Shown one piece after another: positions 26,763 through 52,763 of a DNA stretch of 64,000 nucleotides. Each line of letters starts with the position of its first letter. Position 1 is the first letter of the stretch. The notes beneath the pieces were generated by a model. It had not been told where the DNA came from and searched no databases. It worked only from the letters and a program-made list of their open reading frames with translations. A program made the position numbers and the translations under genes. This stretch comes from Candidatus Bathyarchaeota archaeon (lineage in GTDB: Archaea; Thermoproteota; Bathyarchaeia; Bathyarchaeales; Bathycorpusculaceae). Location of the stretch: the NCBI GenBank assembly GCA_026014485.1, contig JAOZIE010000008.1, forward strand, positions 62,001-126,000, in the 5' to 3' direction.

Positions 26763-26885
26763 CGTGGCTCCACTTTTTCTTTTACTGCTCTAATTAGCAA
26801 AACAGGTGAGGTTTACCCGCTTGTTAAATCAGCAAGATGCCTGTTGCTTCCTGCTTATCAACAATCAAGAAAGCATATATTGGGG

Positions 26886-28784
26886 ATGTTCAAGAAATAT
26901 GCGGGGACAAGAAATTTGGAAAAACCATTTGTAACCAAAGACAAGTTTTTAGTTGGAATAATAATCGCAATTTTAGCTGCAAGCTTAATTTCAGTTGCTT
27001 TCTCCATGCAACTCTCCGTCGGCCCCCAAGGTCCTAAAGGCGACAAAGGCGACACGGGTGCTACTGGTGCTACTGGTTCGCAGGGTCAAGCTGGACCCTC
27101 AGGCGCTCCTGGCGAAACAGGCGCTACAGGGTCACAGGGACCCCAAGGCGAAACGGGAGCAACGGGTGCAACAGGAGCAACCGGCGCTACGGGAGCATCT
27201 GGTGCTACGGGACCGCAAGGTGACACTGGAGCAACGGGTGCTACGGGAGCAACGGGTGCTACTGGTGCTACTGGTTCGCAGGGTTTACAGGGAATACAGG
27301 GTGTTCCTGGTCCTCAGGGGCCATATTTGCCTGACTATGACAGTGGCTGGGTGAACCTAACTGACTTGGAGGGGCAGTATTACCCGCTGACCCATGGTTT
27401 GAACGACAGCGAAAACTTGCTTGTTGACATCACTGGAAAGACCTCGGCGGACGGCTCTGTGCATGACCAGTATTTGGGGCTATCTCGAGTTTACAGTCCA
27501 GGGTTTAACCTGACTTATTCTGTGAATGGCTCAGAAATCTACGCAGAAGATATGGTTCAGACCTACGATGGAGGGTACCTATTAACTGGGTCCATAATGC
27601 CTGACAATAGTAGCGAAGACATCTTTGTGCTTAAAACTGACGCTTACGGCGTGATGCAGTGGAACAAAACCTACGGTGGATCAAACGATGAATTCGGCAG
27701 GGTCCTCTTATTGACAAGTGATGGTGGCTGCGTAATTATGGGTCCTATCTACCTTGACTTCGAGAATGGCACTTATCTTGACAAGTTGTTTCTGATGAAG
27801 CTTGATGCATCTGGCAATCTTGTTTGGAACCAAACTTACGGCGAAATGGATGATGAATACGGTCGTGATGTCATACAAACAAGCGATGGCGGCTTCATTA
27901 TAGCAGGCAGCTTATACTCAGCGACCAACGGAACTCAATACGCTTTGTTGCATAAAACGGATGCTAATGGCAATTTGCAGTGGACTAAAACTTACATTGG
28001 AGCTTCTGACTTAAGCGCTGCCCGCATAATCCCCGTTGATGATGGATATGCGGTCGCTGGCTACTTGACGACAATAACTGTCTCTGGGAACGATACCAGT
28101 TATGATGATGACATCTGGCTGTTCAAAACCGACTTGACTGGGAACATGCTGTGGAATATGACTTACGGGGGGTTAGACGATGAGTATGTTGATTCTCTGT
28201 CTCAGACTCCCGAAGGCGGATATCTGCTCTTAGGTGATGCCTCCAATTACAGCGAAGATACCTACTCCAGCAGCGTACTTATGCTTAAAACGGATGCTTC
28301 TGGAAACCTGCTGTGGAACACTACTCACGTTATGTCCAGCTTCACCGTGCCAGAGAACATTACTGAATTCACAGCTGCAGAGTACTACGCGACAAACGCT
28401 ATTCCCACAGTTGACGGCGGATACTTGTTTAGCGGTCTAGAAGAAACCATTCACGTGAGCAACGACTCTTACTCCTTTGAGGTTCAGTCGCTGGTTACCA
28501 AATTCGACGGACAGGGAAATGTGCAGTGGACAAGAAGCTATGGCGACGAAGGCTACACTCTACTGTTCACCGTAATTCAAACGCGAGACGGCGGCTACGC
28601 ATTAGCAGGCTTCAAAACAGACGCAGAATTCGAAGCATACCAGCTGTACATAGTTAAGACAGCCGTCAACGGAGAAGTCGGCTTAGCCATGACGGGCTTA
28701 ACAGACAACGCAGTCACACTGTACCGCGGCGAAAGCGACCCCTACTGGAACTACGTCCGCGTAAGACTCTGGGTAATCGAATAG
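26886..28784 (+). CDS. Collagen-like surface protein with a seven-repeat beta-propeller
   Basis: A 632-residue protein. An N-terminal basic tail and one membrane segment (about residues 21-43) anchor it. Residues 46-146 are 33 unbroken Gly-X-Y triplets rich in GAT, GPQ and GET, as in bacterial collagen-like stalks. After a spacer come seven repeats ending in DGGY-like motifs ([56 protein letters not shown]), which fits a seven-bladed propeller. It closes with [13 protein letters not shown] and [12 protein letters not shown]. Many NxT/S sequons suggest glycosylation. Probably an adhesin or a binding module; the ligand is unknown. Confidence 0.8.
27021..27323 (+). repeat. Gly-X-Y coding repeat (collagen-like tract)
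   Basis: About 300 bases of imperfect 9-base coding units, mainly variants of GGTGCTACG and GGAGCAACG, encoding GAT triplets. Codon use varies between units (GGT/GGA/GGC, ACG/ACT/ACA), so it is not a recent exact expansion. Confidence 0.85.
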
Positions 28785-45831: not shown

Positions 45832-46032
45832 CCCAAAACCCAAAAAACCCTCAAAACAAACCAAACCCGCTCCCCCCTCACACCTCAACCTCCAACCCCC
45901 ATCCACCACTCACACCAAAGCAACACCTACACCCCACATCCACAACACAAACCCCAAACACCTCCACAAAAACAAACCCAAACCACACCTTAAACCATAT
46001 ACAACCCCCCTCAATAGACCAGAAGGTTAAGA
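45832..46032. other. Extremely A/C-rich spacer
   Basis: Nearly 200 bases of plus-strand A and C with almost no G: about three G in the 180 bases 45841-46020. There is no open frame with coding character. It lies between the methyltransferase stop and the first palindromic promoter. Its composition mirrors the G/T-rich stretches at 46261-46365 and 48271-48380. Confidence 0.7.
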
Positions 46033-46062
46033 TTTATATACTTGGATGGATAATCCATCCAA
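46033..46062 (+). promoter_or_regulatory. Promoter P1 with 21-base palindromic operator
   Basis: TATA box TTTATATA (46033-46040), followed by a perfect palindrome at 46042-46062: left arm TTGGATGGAT, central A, right arm ATCCATCCAA. The expected start site, about 25 bases after the TATA, falls at the end of the palindrome on an ATG (46062). The same operator core is found in P2 and P3. It drives the leader-peptide/structured-RNA region. Confidence 0.75.
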
Positions 46063-46232
46063 TGAACAAGTTGCAAAGCGTTGGAGTCAGCCACTGGATC
46101 CGTGTTTCGTCACAATCGCGGTGTAACTTGTAAGTCCGTCGTAGATGCAGCCGTAAGCCGAGCCGTTGAGGTTGCGGACTTGCCTCCCGTAGCCTCAACG
46201 GCACAAATTTTGGTTTTTTCAATTTTTATATG
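46062..46232 (+). ncRNA. Candidate regulated small RNA or leader-peptide transcript
   Basis: Downstream of P1 is a leaderless 23-codon frame (ATG 46062 to TAA 46133, starting MNKLQSVGVSHW). Two overlapping stems follow: AAGTCCG (46132-46138) with CGGACTT (46175-46181), and GCCGTTGAGG (46162-46171) with CCTCAACGGC (46193-46202). The order left1-left2-right1-right2 means they are either mutually exclusive or form a pseudoknot. A U-rich tail (ATTTTGGTTTTTTC, 46207-46220) follows and would end the transcript. No known RNA family is recognised. It could be a stand-alone sRNA or an attenuator-like leader. Confidence 0.5.
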
Positions 46233-46373
46233 TGCCTAGAGCGGTTGGCAGGACTGTTGCTGTTTTTTGGTGTTGCGTTTTTGGGTTGTTTTCTTTTTTG
46301 AGTTTTGTTTGGTGTTTGTTGTTGGGTGATTTGTTTTTTGTGCTGGTTTGTGTTTTGGTTTGTTAGCCTAAAA
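46233..46373. other. Extremely G/T-rich spacer
   Basis: On the plus strand 46261-46365 is almost only G and T, in runs such as GGTGTTTGTTGTTGGGTG. No coding frame is supported. It precedes promoter P2. A shorter G/T-rich stretch lies at 48271-48380 before P3. Confidence 0.65.
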
Positions 46374-46403
46374 CTTATATGTATGGTTGGATAATCCAAC
46401 CAT
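46374..46403 (+). promoter_or_regulatory. Promoter P2 with palindromic operator
   Basis: TATA box CTTATAT (46374-46380), followed by a perfect 21-base palindrome at 46383-46403: left arm ATGGTTGGAT, central A, right arm ATCCAACCAT. The core TTGGAT-A-ATCCA is shared with P1 and P3. The ribosome binding site GGAGG (46416-46420) and the ATG at 46430 follow. Confidence 0.75.
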
Positions 46404-46429
46404 TAACGAGGGTGTGGAGGAACAAACAA

Positions 46430-48220
46430 ATGAAAACCCGACAGTATATCTCTGTAGTTATCTTGGTAATTATTTTGTTTTCGGCTTTAACGGCTTCTTT
46501 AGCGTTTTCTTTTAACGCTACTTCTATTAAAATTGCTGGTCTCGAATCTTCTTTGGACTCTCAGGACAGTCAACTTGACCTGTTCAATGAGCTTCTCAGC
46601 AACCAAGATGCTCAACTCGACAAACTTAACCAGACTCTTGCTGCCCAAAACAACACGCTTAACGAGTACAACCAAACCATTAGCGGTCTCCAACAGCAGC
46701 AAAATCAAGATTTAACTAACCTGACTGCGCAAATCGCCGATTCAAACAACCAAATAATCGATTCCCAAAACCGCCTTCTTGCTGAATACAATCAAACCCT
46801 AAGCAGTCTTCAGCAGCAACGTAATCAGGATTTAGCGAACCTGACCGGGCAAATTGACGCTTACTCTTCTGATCTATCTGGTCAAATTGGCGAATATTCT
46901 TCTGTTCTGAACAGTCAAATTGCAGACTTGGAGTCTCGGTTGCCTGTCCAGCAATACGACTACATAATTTATTCTTCCCCGGGCAATGACGACTTTTACG
47001 TTGCACAAAACGGGCAGACAGGTGAAGTTGATTTCAACTCAACCGATGCGGCACAGGTAATTAACAGTGCTCTCGAAAACGGTAACAGTGTTTTTGTGAA
47101 GAGTGGCATCTACATTTTAGGGTCTGATGTTATTTGTTATAACAAAAAGAACTTGATGTTGGATGGTGAAGGTGCAACTTTGAAGTGTACTCACCACAAA
47201 ATAATCATACGTGGCTCAACATATTTGGCTTCACAGAATAATCGTGTTTCTGGCTTTATAGTTGCGAATGGCGGCGTCAGGATTGAGAATTCTGCTAGGA
47301 CAACAATCACGAACATGATTTTTGAAAGCTGTGAGGTCGGGGTTGAGCTTGTTAACACGAACACTTGGTCGGAATGTACAAAAATTGATGATTCACATTT
47401 CATTACCTGCACTGAAGGCATAGCTTTTCGAACCCCCAGCCCGGGGGCTACAGGTTCCTATGGGAATGCTGCGATTTCGCGTTGTTATTTTAACCTCCGT
47501 GATAATTCCATTGCTATAACAGTAGAGCGCGGGGCAGAATTTACTGATGGTCAAATGCAGAATGTCCGCATCTGGATATGTGGATATTCTGCGCAGCAGT
47601 ATAATCAAACTGGGCTCAAAATCAGCGGTTCCCTATTTCAAACAGTGATGGAGGGCGTGGTTTTTGAGTCGTTTGCATACGGGAACCTGAGTGATTCAGA
47701 GGTTTATGCCGTGTATATCGATACAAATTACCAAACTCCTATCCTTCAGGCAGGCATCACTTTTCTTGGTCCTTGGACAAATATAATTTATAATCCTACA
47801 AACAGCGAGGTCCAAGGTGAAGGCTTAGGGGTTGCCTTTAAACAGGAAAACATAACCATCCCCGTGAGTGCTTCTTCAAACTACCTGAACGAACCAACTG
47901 TTATTCAGGTGGCGCCTTCCACCATTACGAACTTTAAAGCGCTACTTATGGTCAACGGGGATTTTAGCCAAAACGAGACAATCACGGTTCGATTCCGCCT
48001 TGGTTTTGTTGATAAAGACGTTGCGGCAGGCTCCGGGATTGTGGAGAAGACCTTTACTTCTTCTTCTTCGTTGTGGCTGAGTGATGATGACCTGTTAAGG
48101 CTGATGCCCTTAAAAGATATGGTTCGGTCAATTTTAGTGGATGCCAAGGTGGACTCTGACTCTGCGGATGCAACTGTTCAGGTTAGCGTGTTTGGTGTAA
48201 CTACGTGGTCTGCAATGTAG
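46430..48220 (+). CDS. Surface protein: membrane anchor, coiled-coil stalk, right-handed beta-helix
   Basis: A 596-residue protein. One N-terminal membrane segment (about 8-30) is followed by a coiled coil (about 38-180) rich in Gln and Asn, with a repeated unit (EYNQTISGLQQQQNQDL and EYNQTLSSLQQQRNQDL) and many NxT/S sequons. Residues about 195-470 look like a pectate-lyase-type beta-helix: DAAQVINSALENGNSVFVKSG, then stacked short strands (ISGFIVANG, ITNMIFESC). The end is a beta domain. It resembles tail-spike or adhesin designs. It shares its operator with a metal/corrinoid importer, so it may bind a ligand or surface related to uptake. Confidence 0.7.
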   Translation: MKTRQYISVVILVIILFSALTASLAFSFNATSIKIAGLESSLDSQDSQLDLFNELLSNQDAQLDKLNQTLAAQNNTLNEYNQTISGLQQQQNQDLTNLTAQIADSNNQIIDSQNRLLAEYNQTLSSLQQQRNQDLANLTGQIDAYSSDLSGQIGEYSSVLNSQIADLESRLPVQQYDYIIYSSPGNDDFYVAQNGQTGEVDFNSTDAAQVINSALENGNSVFVKSGIYILGSDVICYNKKNLMLDGEGATLKCTHHKIIIRGSTYLASQNNRVSGFIVANGGVRIENSARTTITNMIFESCEVGVELVNTNTWSECTKIDDSHFITCTEGIAFRTPSPGATGSYGNAAISRCYFNLRDNSIAITVERGAEFTDGQMQNVRIWICGYSAQQYNQTGLKISGSLFQTVMEGVVFESFAYGNLSDSEVYAVYIDTNYQTPILQAGITFLGPWTNIIYNPTNSEVQGEGLGVAFKQENITIPVSASSNYLNEPTVIQVAPSTITNFKALLMVNGDFSQNETITVRFRLGFVDKDVAAGSGIVEKTFTSSSSLWLSDDDLLRLMPLKDMVRSILVDAKVDSDSADATVQVSVFGVTTWSAM

Positions 48221-48241
48221 GCTGACGTGTTAACCTTGTTT

Positions 48242-48290
48242 GCCCTCATTTCCCCTTTTAGGGCGAATCTGTTTTTGTTTGTGATTTTTT
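48242..48290 (+). terminator. Hairpin and T-rich tail after the beta-helix gene
   Basis: GCCCT (48242-48246) pairs with AGGGC (48260-48264), followed by T-rich sequence (CTGTTTTTGTTTGTGATTTTTT). It is 20 bases after the stop codon. Confidence 0.5.
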
Positions 48291-48423
48291 ACGTGTGTTT
48301 TAGGTGTGTCTGGTTGTTGGTTTGCTGCTGGTGCCTTTTTGTTTGCTTTGGGGTGGTTTTTGGGTGGGTTGGTTTGTTCAACTTAGGTTGTTCAACTTGT
48401 GATTAATTTGGGTTAAACTAACG

Positions 48424-48453
48424 TTTATATAATTTTCCTTGGATAATCCATCC
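48424..48453 (+). promoter_or_regulatory. Promoter P3 with palindromic operator
   Basis: TATA box TTTATAT (48424-48430), followed at 48437-48453 by CCTTGGAT, central A and ATCCATCC. This is a slightly imperfect copy of the operator in P1 and P2 (core TTGGAT-A-ATCCA). Two TTGTTCAACTT repeats lie just upstream (about 48375-48400). It drives the small protein and ABC importer operon. Confidence 0.7.
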
Positions 48454-48473: not shown

Positions 48474-48740
48474 TTGCAGTTTCAACCCAAATCCTCATTT
48501 CCATTAAGCTCAACAGCGAGTCAAGAAAAAACGACGCTGTTTCAAGTTCTGAATATTAATAACCCCACAATGGGGAACCCCATTCTTAGCGGACTGATGA
48601 AGCAGTTTTGTACTGAGATGAACAGGTGCCACTTACTTTTGGACGAATCAAACGTTACATCTGTTGCTTCATTGGTTTATGCCAACCTGTTTCACGATCC
48701 CGGGATAACTTTTAGCGGACTTGGAGGTGAAAAATCGTGA
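48474..48740 (+). CDS. Small protein at the head of the importer operon
   Basis: An 88-codon frame from TTG 48474 (MQFQPKSSFPLSS...). A shorter start at ATG 48571 (MGNPILSGLMKQF) is also possible. Its TGA overlaps the GTG of the binding-protein gene, so coupling is likely. It has a few Cys and His (FCTEMNRCHLLLDE) that could bind metal. No family is recognised and no signal peptide is seen. It may be a regulatory leader or a small cytosolic partner. Confidence 0.5.
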   Translation: MQFQPKSSFPLSSTASQEKTTLFQVLNINNPTMGNPILSGLMKQFCTEMNRCHLLLDESNVTSVASLVYANLFHDPGITFSGLGGEKS

Positions 48741-50083
48741 AGAAAACGTTCCTTGCGCTTATAACGGTTATACTTATAGCGGTTATTGGCGCTTCCTCTT
48801 TCGGTATATATTCAATTTACAATCCTTCAGCTACTCCTACTCCTTCAGCCAGTCCTACTCCTGAGCCTACTGCAACTCCCACTGTTACTGCCTCTCCCGA
48901 ATCCACCCCAACGCCTACTTTGACCCCTTCCCCCTCTGCTTCAGTGACCTCTTCGCCTACTGCAACTCCTGAGGCTTCTCCATCCGAGACTCCCCAGGTA
49001 ACCTCTACTCCTGAGCCTACGCAATCTGTTGCGCCTTCTGCTTCTCCATCTGTTGCGCCTTCTGCTTCTCCATCTGTTGCGCCTTCTGCTTCTCCTACTG
49101 TTCAGCCCACGGTGACTGCTACTCCTACTCCTGAACCTACTGCTTCCCCGACACCTTCGCCCACTCCAAAACCTGAGAGCATCACCTATACAGATGTAAC
49201 TGGAGCAAACGTTATCGTGAAGCTTCCAGTGAACCGTGTAGTTTCAGTTATGGCAACTGACCTTGTCACAGCAATCGGTGCTCACGACAGAATTGTGGGT
49301 CGTGGCAATATTGATGCCACCGGGCTTTCTCTTCTTCCCGCAGCCATTGCGGATATACCTGTAGCTGGAAGCGTTGAGACTGTTCTGGAGATGGCCCCTG
49401 ACTTGGTTATTGTAAGTGAACTATACGGCGACGCAAACGTTGAGTTGCTGAGAAACGCTGGACTAGCAGTTATCGTCGATAGGACGGTGCAACCAAGACG
49501 TTCGATACTTGTACACAACTTAGGTATAATGCTGGATGCAGAAGAAATGGCTGAGGAATTCAACTCTTTCGAGGCTCATTACATGAACCTCGTTACAGAA
49601 CGCGTTCAAAACCTAACGGATAGCCAGAAGCCCACAGTTTACTTCGAATTCTACATGCCTGGATACAGTTGCGGTCCAGGGAATTCCTTCCATGACTTGA
49701 TAGTCGAAGCTGGTGGAATAAACATTGCTAACGAGACTGTTGCGATGCCTATTTTGAGTGCTGAGTATGTGCTAGAGAAGAATCCTGACATTATCGTTAG
49801 GATGTTGACGTACTTGGATGGTTTCGAATTGTCTTCCTTCAAGTATCTGCAGACTGAAATGATGTCTCGAGCTGGCATGAGTGAAGTCACCGCCGTAAAA
49901 AATGGTGATGTCTACATCGTTAGAGATGCTGTAATCGTCTCACGGGAAACCATTGGATTGCTGTACTATGCGACATGGTTCCACCCTGATTTATTCGCAG
50001 ACATTGACCCCGCAGCTGTAGACGCCGAGTATCTTCAGAAGTTCTACGGAGTATCCTTGACAGGAGTCTACACGTATTCATGA
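48737..50083 (+). CDS. ABC-importer substrate-binding protein (BtuF/FecB type) on a Pro/Ser/Thr stalk
   Basis: A 448-residue protein. It has an N-terminal membrane anchor (about 4-25) and a linker of about 115 residues made almost only of Pro, Ser, Thr, Ala and Glu, with three copies of SVAPSASP. A two-lobed metal/cobalamin-binding domain follows: RVVSVMATDLVTAIGAHDRIVG, MAPDLVIVSELYG, and a long helix with FNSFEAHYMNLV. Family members bind vitamin B12, cobinamide, heme or siderophores. The ligand is not readable. It starts with GTG and overlaps the permease gene by 4 bases. Confidence 0.85.
   Translation: MKKTFLALITVILIAVIGASSFGIYSIYNPSATPTPSASPTPEPTATPTVTASPESTPTPTLTPSPSASVTSSPTATPEASPSETPQVTSTPEPTQSVAPSASPSVAPSASPSVAPSASPTVQPTVTATPTPEPTASPTPSPTPKPESITYTDVTGANVIVKLPVNRVVSVMATDLVTAIGAHDRIVGRGNIDATGLSLLPAAIADIPVAGSVETVLEMAPDLVIVSELYGDANVELLRNAGLAVIVDRTVQPRRSILVHNLGIMLDAEEMAEEFNSFEAHYMNLVTERVQNLTDSQKPTVYFEFYMPGYSCGPGNSFHDLIVEAGGINIANETVAMPILSAEYVLEKNPDIIVRMLTYLDGFELSSFKYLQTEMMSRAGMSEVTAVKNGDVYIVRDAVIVSRETIGLLYYATWFHPDLFADIDPAAVDAEYLQKFYGVSLTGVYTYS
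49025..49096 (+). repeat. 24-base tandem repeat in the binding-protein linker
   Basis: Three nearly identical 24-base units beginning TCTGTTGCGCCTTCTGC encode SVAPSASP repeats of the extracellular linker. The near-exact DNA identity suggests recent slippage or unequal exchange. Confidence 0.85.
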
Positions 50084-51153
50084 GCTCAACAGAAATAAAA
50101 ACGCAGTACACTAAAGCCAAAGCGAGAAAATTTCTCGCGCTTTTTCTAGTTTTTATAGCCTTAATAATAACAATTATACTTTCCATAAGCCTCGGGGCGG
50201 GGTCTCCTCGATTTTCTGAGGCGGCAAACGTAATTTTTTCTAGAGCTTTTCCATTTCTCAATATTGCTCCCGAAAACTCAATAACTCAGTTTATAATAAT
50301 GGATGTTCGGTTGCCAAGGGTTTGTTTGGCCATTCTAGCAGGAGCAGGACTTGCCTCTTCTGGAGCCACAATGCAGGGCGTGCTGCGGAACCCTCTTGTT
50401 TCCTCCTATATCTTGGGTATATCTTCAGCTGCAGGGTTCGGTGCAGCGCTGGCAATCGTCTTCGGAGTGAGCGTTTTTACACCTATAGGCGGTTACGTTG
50501 TCGTTGGAAACGCTTTCGTATTTAGCCTTTTAGCGATGTTTACTGTGTACGGAATTGCCCGCGTGAGGTCCATAAATACTGAAACAGTAATTTTAGCAGG
50601 GGTCGCCGTTGGTTTTCTTTTTTCAGCCCTGCTTTCTTTAGTTCAGTTTGTTGCGCCTGAATATGAGGCGTTGAGGTCGGTCGTTTTCTGGCTTATGGGC
50701 GGGTTAGGTTCCGCGAAATGGCAGAATATCCTGATAATTCTACCCATCATCGTAGTTACGCTTCTACTTATGTCCAAGAAGTCTTGGGACCTTAACGTCA
50801 TGAGTCTAGGTGAAGAAGTTGCTACCAGCGTCGGCGTGAATTCTAAACGCACGCTTACCGTCTGCATGGTGCTGGCTACCTTAGCAACTGCCAGCATAAT
50901 CGCCTTCACAGGCGTAATAGGCTTTGTATGTTTAATTTCTCCTCACATCTCAAGAATGATGATCGGCAGCGACCATCGGTTTTTGATACCTTGCAGCGTA
51001 CTCGTAGGCAGTGTTTTGCTCTTAGGGTCTGATACTGTGGCGCGGTTAGTGCTTGCGCCCACAGAACTGCCTGTAGGAATTGTAACATCGTTGTTGGGTG
51101 TACCGTTCTTCATTTACATGTTGCTTAGTAAAAGGAGGCAAAGTTGGCGTTGA
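50080..51153 (+). CDS. FecCD/BtuC-family ABC permease
   Basis: A 357-residue permease with about ten hydrophobic helices. Characteristic blocks are MDVRLPRVCLAILAGAGLASSGATMQGVLRNPL, GISSAAGFGAALA and the coupling region with GVIGFVCLISPHISRMMIG near residue 285. It forms the membrane pore of the importer with the ATPase at 51144. ATGA overlap upstream and a 10-base overlap downstream show a tight operon. Confidence 0.93.
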   Translation: MSSTEIKTQYTKAKARKFLALFLVFIALIITIILSISLGAGSPRFSEAANVIFSRAFPFLNIAPENSITQFIIMDVRLPRVCLAILAGAGLASSGATMQGVLRNPLVSSYILGISSAAGFGAALAIVFGVSVFTPIGGYVVVGNAFVFSLLAMFTVYGIARVRSINTETVILAGVAVGFLFSALLSLVQFVAPEYEALRSVVFWLMGGLGSAKWQNILIILPIIVVTLLLMSKKSWDLNVMSLGEEVATSVGVNSKRTLTVCMVLATLATASIIAFTGVIGFVCLISPHISRMMIGSDHRFLIPCSVLVGSVLLLGSDTVARLVLAPTELPVGIVTSLLGVPFFIYMLLSKRRQSWR

Positions 51154-51980
51154 AATTAGTAATAGACAATCTATCCTTCAATTATGCGTCTTTCGCTGTG
51201 CTGAAAGATATCAACATCAAAGTTGATGTAGGTGAAGTCTTAAGCATTGTAGGTCCAAACGGGTCGGGTAAAAGTACTCTCCTAAAATGCATAAACAGAA
51301 TACTGAAGCCCCAGCGGGATACGATTCTAATTGATGGACGATGCACCACCAAGATAAGCATAAAAGAAATGTCCAAGTTGATGGGGTATGTTCCTCAAAG
51401 TTCAATCAGCACCTTTCCGTTCACCGTTTTTGATATAGTGCTTATGGGGCGCAGACCTTACATCAACTGGAACCTCAGCGAAAACGACAGTCGAATAGCT
51501 GCGGAAATGTTGGATTTTCTAGGCATCGGTTCGCTGGCTATGCGCCACTTTAACGAGTTAAGTGGAGGCGAGCAGCAAAAAGTTGTCATAGCACGAGCCC
51601 TTGCACAGCAACCGCAAATCCTGCTCTTCGATGAACCTACAAGTTCCCTTGACATCAAGCATCAACTGGAGATTCTGTGCATACTCAAGAGTTTAGCTCA
51701 AAACTTGTCGTGTTCTGTTGTGGTGTCTATTCACGATTTGAATTTGGCAAGCCGATTCTCAGACACAATGGTTATGCTCAAAAAAGGGCGAATATTCGCC
51801 GTTGGCTCTCCTGAGGAAGTCTTAACTGAAGAAAACATTGCAGCGGTGTATGATATCAAGTGTAAAGTGACGCATTCGCTCTTGGATAAACCCCAAGTTG
51901 TTCCCCTGATATCTGAAGACCGCGTAGTTAGGTCTCTGAACTTACCTACTCAAGCTCCGCTTCCCACTCAACGGCTTTAG
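51144..51980 (+). CDS. BtuD/FecE-family ABC ATPase
   Basis: A 278-residue importer ATPase with full motifs: Walker A VGPNGSGKSTLLK, signature ELSGGEQQKVVIARAL, Walker B ILLFDEPTSSLD and H-loop SIHDLNLA. TTG start at 51144 with AGGAGG eight bases upstream. It completes the SBP-permease-ATPase set. The paralogue at 42423 has lost the signature and switch His, so this is the motor. Confidence 0.93.
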   Translation: MALKLVIDNLSFNYASFAVLKDINIKVDVGEVLSIVGPNGSGKSTLLKCINRILKPQRDTILIDGRCTTKISIKEMSKLMGYVPQSSISTFPFTVFDIVLMGRRPYINWNLSENDSRIAAEMLDFLGIGSLAMRHFNELSGGEQQKVVIARALAQQPQILLFDEPTSSLDIKHQLEILCILKSLAQNLSCSVVVSIHDLNLASRFSDTMVMLKKGRIFAVGSPEEVLTEENIAAVYDIKCKVTHSLLDKPQVVPLISEDRVVRSLNLPTQAPLPTQRL

Positions 51981-52106: not shown

Positions 52107-52763
52107 ATGTTGCATAGAAGTTGGGCAAGCATGACTTGCGGGCTAAAAGATTTGGTTGAGGGGCTACTGGAGGTTAAGGCTCCTGGTCCGCCGCTGTCTT
52201 TTTCAGTATTTCACTTGTTTTATGCTCTGGAAATGCTTTCTGAAAAAACCGTTGGACGCAACAGACTTGCTGAACACCTAAATGTGGGTGAGGGTGCCAT
52301 ACGTACCATAGTGCGTCGATTTGTCGAGGCTGATTTAATGACGACCTCCCAAATGGGATGTTGCCTTTCTGTCAAGGGTTTGAATCTTTGGCGGGGGTTT
52401 GAATCGGTTTTTCCATTGCGCGCTGAGTTCTTGCAGACCGAGTTGACTCCATGCGAGCATAATTACGCTTTTTTGGTAAGAGGCTGTAGCTGTAGCGTAG
52501 GGTCTGGTATTGAGCAACGGGACGCAGCGGTTATGGCTGGTGCAATACGCGCCTTGATTATCGTTTTTCGAAATGGACGTTTACGCATTGAATCGGTCAG
52601 TGAAGACATTGGAGACGTGTTTCCTGATGCCGCAAGTCAGATACTTCAGGAACTCAACCCCCAAGACAACGACATCATCGTAGTTGCTGGAGGCGATACC
52701 TCTTTAAACGCTAAACGCGGGGCTTTCGCAGCTAGTTGGTCGCTTCTTGACGGAATCGGCTGA
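52107..52763 (+). CDS. Winged-helix regulator with a Cys-rich sensor domain (DUF4443-like)
   Basis: A 218-residue protein. Residues about 30-95 form a winged helix (EMLSEKTVGRNRLAEHLNVGEGAIRTIVRRFVEADLM). The C-terminal half has CEHNYAFLVRGCSCSVGSGIEQRDAAVMAG and a closing IIVVAGGDTSLNAKRGA. This arrangement reminds me of archaeal DUF4443 regulators. The Cys and His residues could bind metal. It sits 127 bases after the importer operon and is a candidate for the protein that binds the P1-P3 palindrome. That link is inferred from position only. Confidence 0.65.
   Translation: MLHRSWASMTCGLKDLVEGLLEVKAPGPPLSFSVFHLFYALEMLSEKTVGRNRLAEHLNVGEGAIRTIVRRFVEADLMTTSQMGCCLSVKGLNLWRGFESVFPLRAEFLQTELTPCEHNYAFLVRGCSCSVGSGIEQRDAAVMAGAIRALIIVFRNGRLRIESVSEDIGDVFPDAASQILQELNPQDNDIIVVAGGDTSLNAKRGAFAASWSLLDGIG

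Follow-up and report, generated by a model that had tools for sequence, protein, structure and literature searches.

Archaeal NikR, DtxR/MDR1, and Fur control regulons for metal and cofactor supply through palindromic sites, and archaea are important makers and users of vitamin B12. One metagenomic study implicates Thaumarchaeota in global cobalamin production (PMC4303638). In bacteria, the B12 target set including cbtBA is regulated by riboswitch (PMC8123684). The bacterial cobalamin riboswitch, an RNA aptamer (RF00174), governs btuFCD, cbiMQO, cbtBA, cobaltochelatase, and cbiB. Two protein systems come close to the one described below: the CggR/SorC-type repressors, with a winged-helix DNA-binding domain, and PH0730 of Pyrococcus horikoshii (PDB ID: 2p8t; DUF4443, PF14544), a structural-genomics entry without assigned function. 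Here, we report a palindrome in Bathyarchaeia that precedes the same kind of targets as the bacterial riboswitch and that is the switch of a vitamin B12/cobalt uptake regulon across many archaea, with DUF4443 probably as its binder. Taken as a whole, the reading that a DUF4443 protein represses a cobalamin/cobalt regulon through this palindrome, with a second regulator at some of the promoters, has in our estimate a probability of roughly three in four.

The window, i.e., the whole stretch of 64,000 nucleotides analyzed (contig JAOZIE010000008.1, positions 62,001 to 126,000), holds the following features of the system.

46033–46040, plus strand: TATA box of the RNA promoter (sequence)
46042–46062, no strand: operator 1, perfect 10-1-10 palindrome TTGGATGGATAATCCATCCAA, arms TTGGATGGAT-A-ATCCATCCAA (sequence, window motif scan, class 17-mer search)
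46060–46210, plus strand: structured RNA behind operator 1 (fold z-scores, homologues, covariation)
46374–46381, plus strand: TATA-like box CTTATATG of the beta-helix gene (sequence)
46383–46403, no strand: operator 2, perfect 10-1-10 palindrome ATGGTTGGATAATCCAACCAT, arms ATGGTTGGAT-A-ATCCAACCAT (sequence, window motif scan)
46430–48220, plus strand: secreted coiled-coil and beta-helix-like protein (no Pfam family)
48391–48418, plus strand: degenerate second element (TTCAAC..TTAAT..GTTAAAC) upstream of operator 3
48424–48431, plus strand: TATA box of the importer operon (sequence)
48437–48453, no strand: operator 3, perfect 11-bp core TGGATAATCCA, right outer CC retained, left outer arm degenerate with GG changed to CC (sequence, window motif scan)
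48474–48740, plus strand: 88-aa deletion remnant of a ChlI/ChlD-type cobaltochelatase subunit (matches chelatase residues 1–40 and 628–664)
48737–50083, plus strand: BtuF-type substrate-binding protein (PF01497, 1.8e-21)
50080–51153, plus strand: BtuC-type permease (FecCD, 2.9e-90; BtuC model best)
51144–51980, plus strand: BtuD-type ATPase (Pfam)
52107–52763, plus strand: DUF4443 winged-helix protein, candidate repressor, a diverged paralogue of the C7:155430 copy (PF14544 5.6e-22, context, tree, structure)

A sequence-only reading of this window had claimed that three promoters carry a TATA box and a common palindrome over the expected transcription start, that the palindrome is unlike the Fur, DtxR/MDR1, and NikR boxes, and that an uptake regulon lies under it. 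Each of these points holds. The pattern TTGGATNATCCAA with up to two mismatches has nine matches in the window against 2.5 expected, a number reached in 0 of 100 shuffles, and its sequence differs from the boxes named. The operator centers lie 18 to 21 bp past the first T of the TATA box, with a mode of 19 across genomes; because of this distance of about 19, the operator reaches from about −18 to about +3 relative to the expected start, a position from which we infer repression by the bound protein.

The targets in the window needed some correction. The third had been taken as a small protein plus a BtuF/C/D-type importer: the importer stands, and the small protein, which has no Pfam family, turns out to be a chelatase with its middle deleted, since its residues 1–40 align with chelatase 1–40 and its residues 40–76 with chelatase 628–664. 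The BtuC and BtuD of the window are 73% and 72% identical to their copies on C9 and the promoters can be aligned, which together with the chelatase stub indicates that the operon in the window is paralogous to the one on C9, with its own chelatase deleted to this stub. The coiled-coil/beta-helix surface protein does have operator 2 ahead of it; its start, however, is ATG 46430, preceded by GGAGG, and not 46379, which falls inside the operator.

In the genome as a whole, where sites were located by pattern search and by inspection of the stretches around the matches, the core occurs seven times, against none for the reversed control. TATA-flanked operators stand ahead of a ChlI/ChlD-type chelatase of 677 aa with BtuFCD behind it (C9:92438), ahead of CbiM-CbiQ-CbiO (C2:199481), and ahead of BtuFCD, a diphthamide-synthase-like ATPase, and CobS (C7:191329, minus strand); Pfam supports CbiM (2.9e-55), CbiQ (1.6e-45), CobS (3.2e-40), and the periplasmic-binding proteins. 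The seventh site (C7:113347) has neither a TATA box nor a B12 gene beside it. Divergent to the BtuFCD-CobS operon in two loci (L068 and L027:9471-9971) is a PgpA-like protein (PF04608, below cut-off), possibly CobZ, the archaeal α-ribazole phosphatase.

The same arrangement recurs in related genomes. The core is found in 56 of 61 relatives, clearly exceeding the control, and the strict 17-mer GGATGGATAATCCATCC was counted 65 times, spread over 57 of the 257 genomes of the class, the reversed control giving 0. Stretches fetched around the matches with gene content ignored gave 95 distinct operator places, of which 62 have a TATA-like hexamer on exactly one side at 14 to 30 bp (3.8% for random positions). 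The outer GG/CC, not required by the 11-mer search, is conserved in more than 80% of TATA-flanked sites, some of these sites having come from the 17-mer search, which itself demands it. In 53 of 64 TATA-flanked orientations, the genes that come next on the same strand are B12/cobalt genes: BtuFCD, CbiM, chelatase subunits, or an ECF substrate component with a DUF4430-like membrane protein after it. Fragments of CobN and CbiB from operator loci were confirmed by Pfam; of two ECF substrate components tested, one passes its Pfam cut-off, and the DUF4430 match stays under the cut-off in the Bathyarchaeia copy, exceeding it in a homologue from Methanodesulfokora. With a common operator before corrinoid and cobalt importers and chelatase genes, the substrate theme of the regulon is cobalamin/cobalt, and random scatter or loss at orthologous importers, either of which would have counted against the earlier claim, is contradicted by these counts. 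We regard it as nearly certain that an archaeal cobalamin/cobalt regulon has the palindrome GGWTGGATWATCCAWCC as its operator. In the ECF genes (L204, L177, L180, and similar), ATGGATAATCC is often contained in the operator, so that gene callers will give these proteins a spurious MDNPSN-like N terminus inside it.

The cobalamin riboswitch model RF00174 gave no match in any of 61 relatives, whereas 8 of 14 control genomes were positive, and there was no Rfam match at 45900–46450 that would place an RF00174-type aptamer in the leader. The B12 target set therefore appears here under a DNA operator with a proposed protein, in contrast to the RNA aptamer of bacteria, and the operator regulon suggests how archaea without B12 riboswitches control their B12 supply.

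In the mechanism we propose, a winged-helix dimer of the DUF4443 family would bind the palindrome over the start region just past the TATA box and, when corrinoid (less likely cobalt) is ample, exclude RNA polymerase; falling supply would then allow transcription of BtuFCD, CbiMQO, CbtBA, the ECF importer, and cobaltochelatase, and in this genus of the structured RNA as well. As to the signal, the aligned DUF4443 family members have no His and no Cys among their invariant residues, which weakly favors a corrinoid over a bare metal, and we lean modestly toward a corrinoid. Direct sensing of cobalt or another metal, within a regulon that is itself real, is the less probable choice, if a serious one: the cobalt importers CbiMQO and CbtBA are among the targets, but so, equally, are the corrinoid importers BtuFCD.

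The case for DUF4443 as the repressor begins with the protein itself. The 52107–52763 product also matches PF22167 (2.3e-09) and combines the PF14544 C-terminal domain with a winged-helix N-terminal domain, the family and fold of PH0730; its AlphaFold model (pLDDT 92.9) matches 2p8t with TM scores of 0.68/0.79. Its winged-helix DNA-binding domain is similar to that of CggR/SorC-type repressors (PF21715, 6.7e-06), and in fold comparison this half resembles DNA-bound CggR (7oyk). It is not a CggR/SorC repressor, since only the DNA-binding half was matched and the SorC sugar-phosphate-binding domain gave no match, and those repressors differ in operator and targets. Pfam found no Fur, DtxR/MDR1, or NikR domain in it either, and DUF4443 gave no match to these families. 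The operator, targets, and role put forward here for the PH0730 family are proposals of the present analysis; the term DUF4443 did not occur in the literature searched, nor was an archaeal B12 repressor found there, though an early prediction on B12 regulation (2003) might precede ours.

The genomic link between DUF4443 genes and the operator is recurrent, a phylogenetic footprint over relatives that are not independent. The genes lie within or divergent to operator-bearing ECF/BtuFCD operons in seven families (f1, f6, f7, f13, f15, f25, and f27). Among loci fetched solely for holding DUF4443, a near-perfect site (at least 15/17 within 2.6 kb) is present in 13 of 16 with B12 neighbors versus 2 of 54 others; both exceptions adjoin cobaltochelatase. 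In Nitrososphaeria, 25 of 42 loci have GGATGGTTTATCCAACT or a close variant about 60 to 100 bp upstream of the DUF4443 gene, compared with 1 of 713 windows drawn at random from these loci; the other 17 have no recognizable operator site. In the Nitrososphaeria loci inspected, DUF4443 faces a gene pair with the operator variant in between, and in both pairs tested by Pfam (2/2) this is CbtB and CbtA (PF09489, PF09490). Single sites were also seen before DUF4443 in one Methanodesulfokora and one Methanomassiliicoccales locus. In one Methanomassiliicoccales genome, DUF4443 is fused to DUF2111 (L374:4855-5844).

The distribution of the family is wider than that of the strict site. DUF4443 is present in 198 of 257 class genomes, including families without the strict 17-mer; in several families the sole copy adjoins a GPN GTPase and not a B12 gene, and three operator-bearing, incomplete genomes (G121, G173, and G109) gave no DUF4443 match. 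The genome under study has a second, GPN-GTPase-linked copy, C7:155430. The window copy is a diverged paralogue of it that moved beside the importer operon, and the C7:155430 copy may be the main trans-acting one.

Binding of the palindrome by some other, unrecognized regulator (ArsR, DtxR, or the like) is unlikely: such a view can point to DUF4443 binding being a prediction and to DUF4443 occurring where no strict site was found, but it leaves aside that the site adjoins DUF4443 genes in two archaeal classes and that no further regulator family recurs among the operator neighbors, the MarR/DUF7839 gene excepted. We consider the DUF4443 family the best candidate for the repressor of this operator and quite likely the right one, its binding being predicted. 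The suggestion in the sequence-only reading that the 52107–52763 product be tested as regulator is, in this sense, well founded. A named operator, a protein family with a solved structure, and defined targets make the proposal directly testable, also in cultured ammonia-oxidizing archaea.

In most of the genomes carrying it, the MarR/DUF7839 gene (L026:8577-9428, i.e., C2:198576-199427) stands divergent to cbiM; in G048/G057 its divergent neighbors are chelatase genes. Most members of the genus have the palindrome in the stretch between the divergent genes, so that one could take the MarR/DUF7839 protein for the palindrome binder and DUF4443 for a mere neighbor. We judge this quite improbable. 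The gene is present in only 15 of the 61 relatives, and the palindrome with its TATA box and B12 targets is kept without it, e.g., in G003 (95% complete) and G018 (100%). What tracks the gene instead is a second promoter element, TTCAACC-N5-TTAAC-N4-GTTAA (46 matches versus 0 for the control), located upstream of the TATA box in the promoters of cbiM and of several chelatase/BtuF genes. Of the 15 relatives with the gene divergent to cbiM, 11 have the element, versus 0 of the 46 without the gene (p = 3e-9). Since the element follows the gene and the palindrome persists without it, the MarR/DUF7839 protein, whose Fe_dep_repress match in Pfam is sub-threshold only, is predicted to be probably the binder of the second element and would act through it at these promoters. 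In the window, an additional TTCAAC half-site is found at 48377, near the degenerate copy of the element.

The first target had been described as a structured RNA or leader peptide, and it is the RNA that holds. The segment 46060–46210 folds better than shuffles (z about −3.75 to −4.2) into a 5′ hairpin (46066–46131) and a 3′ hairpin (46162–46202) followed by a T-rich stretch. An Rfam search gave no match, also at a lax threshold, and a plain DNA search in relatives returned short, mostly T-rich fragments; covariance models found homologues in three further genomes of the genus (G001, G005, and G006), in every case immediately after the operator. When the four sequences are aligned, 90.6% of the cells of the 3′ hairpin are paired and 5 of its 16 pairs show two-sided changes, with 1 of 500 shuffles as high and slid versions at 45% paired or less. 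By eye, the linker around GTAGA..AGCC is conserved and the 5′ hairpin is variable yet complementary. The alternative, a leaderless micro-protein or leader peptide (MNKLQSVGVSHWIRVSSQSRCNL), has going for it an ATG (46062) where a leaderless transcript would be expected to begin; we rejected it as highly improbable, for the 23-codon micro-ORF is confined to the window copy and is missing in G001, G005, and G006, where both hairpins are retained. A likeness of the RNA loops to the B12 box of the cobalamin riboswitch was also dropped, as there is no RF00174 signal and the motif varies between homologues. In another genus, G142 and G145 carry structured RNAs (L173:7620-7764 and L175:8118-8262) that are 89% identical to each other, unlike the window RNA in sequence, and likewise behind the operator; G146 (L176) has a third, different one there.

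We propose that the window RNA is a B12/cobalt-starvation RNA. It can be likened to bacterial metal-starvation RNAs such as RyhB, structured non-coding RNAs that share an operator with uptake genes; it differs from them in its unrelated sequence, its archaeal host, and its cobalt/B12 context. If true, it would be a rare case of a metal- or vitamin-regulated archaeal small RNA. More tentatively, and with odds we put slightly below even, DUF4443 may be a corrinoid-sensing repressor that is widespread among archaea (Bathyarchaeia, Nitrososphaeria with their ammonia oxidizers, and further lineages) and takes the place of the B12 riboswitch; in Bathyarchaeia it may also drive this RNA, which would then be an archaeal counterpart of RyhB.

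The view that the palindrome is scattered as a repeat, or arises by chance, and regulates nothing can be set aside as having next to no probability. All that speaks for it are weaker matches lying singly within genes (e.g., C2:235709), against control counts of 0 versus 7 in the genome and 0 versus 65 in the class and a coherent set of targets.

The beta-helix protein was found as an operator target in this genome only. In G212 (L200:8057), a TATA-flanked operator lies ahead of two pilin-like secreted proteins, and with the beta-helix protein of the window in mind, the operator may repeatedly have surface proteins among its additional targets. Elsewhere in the window, 26844–28784 encodes a protein in which a repeat-rich domain comes after collagen-like GXX repeats.
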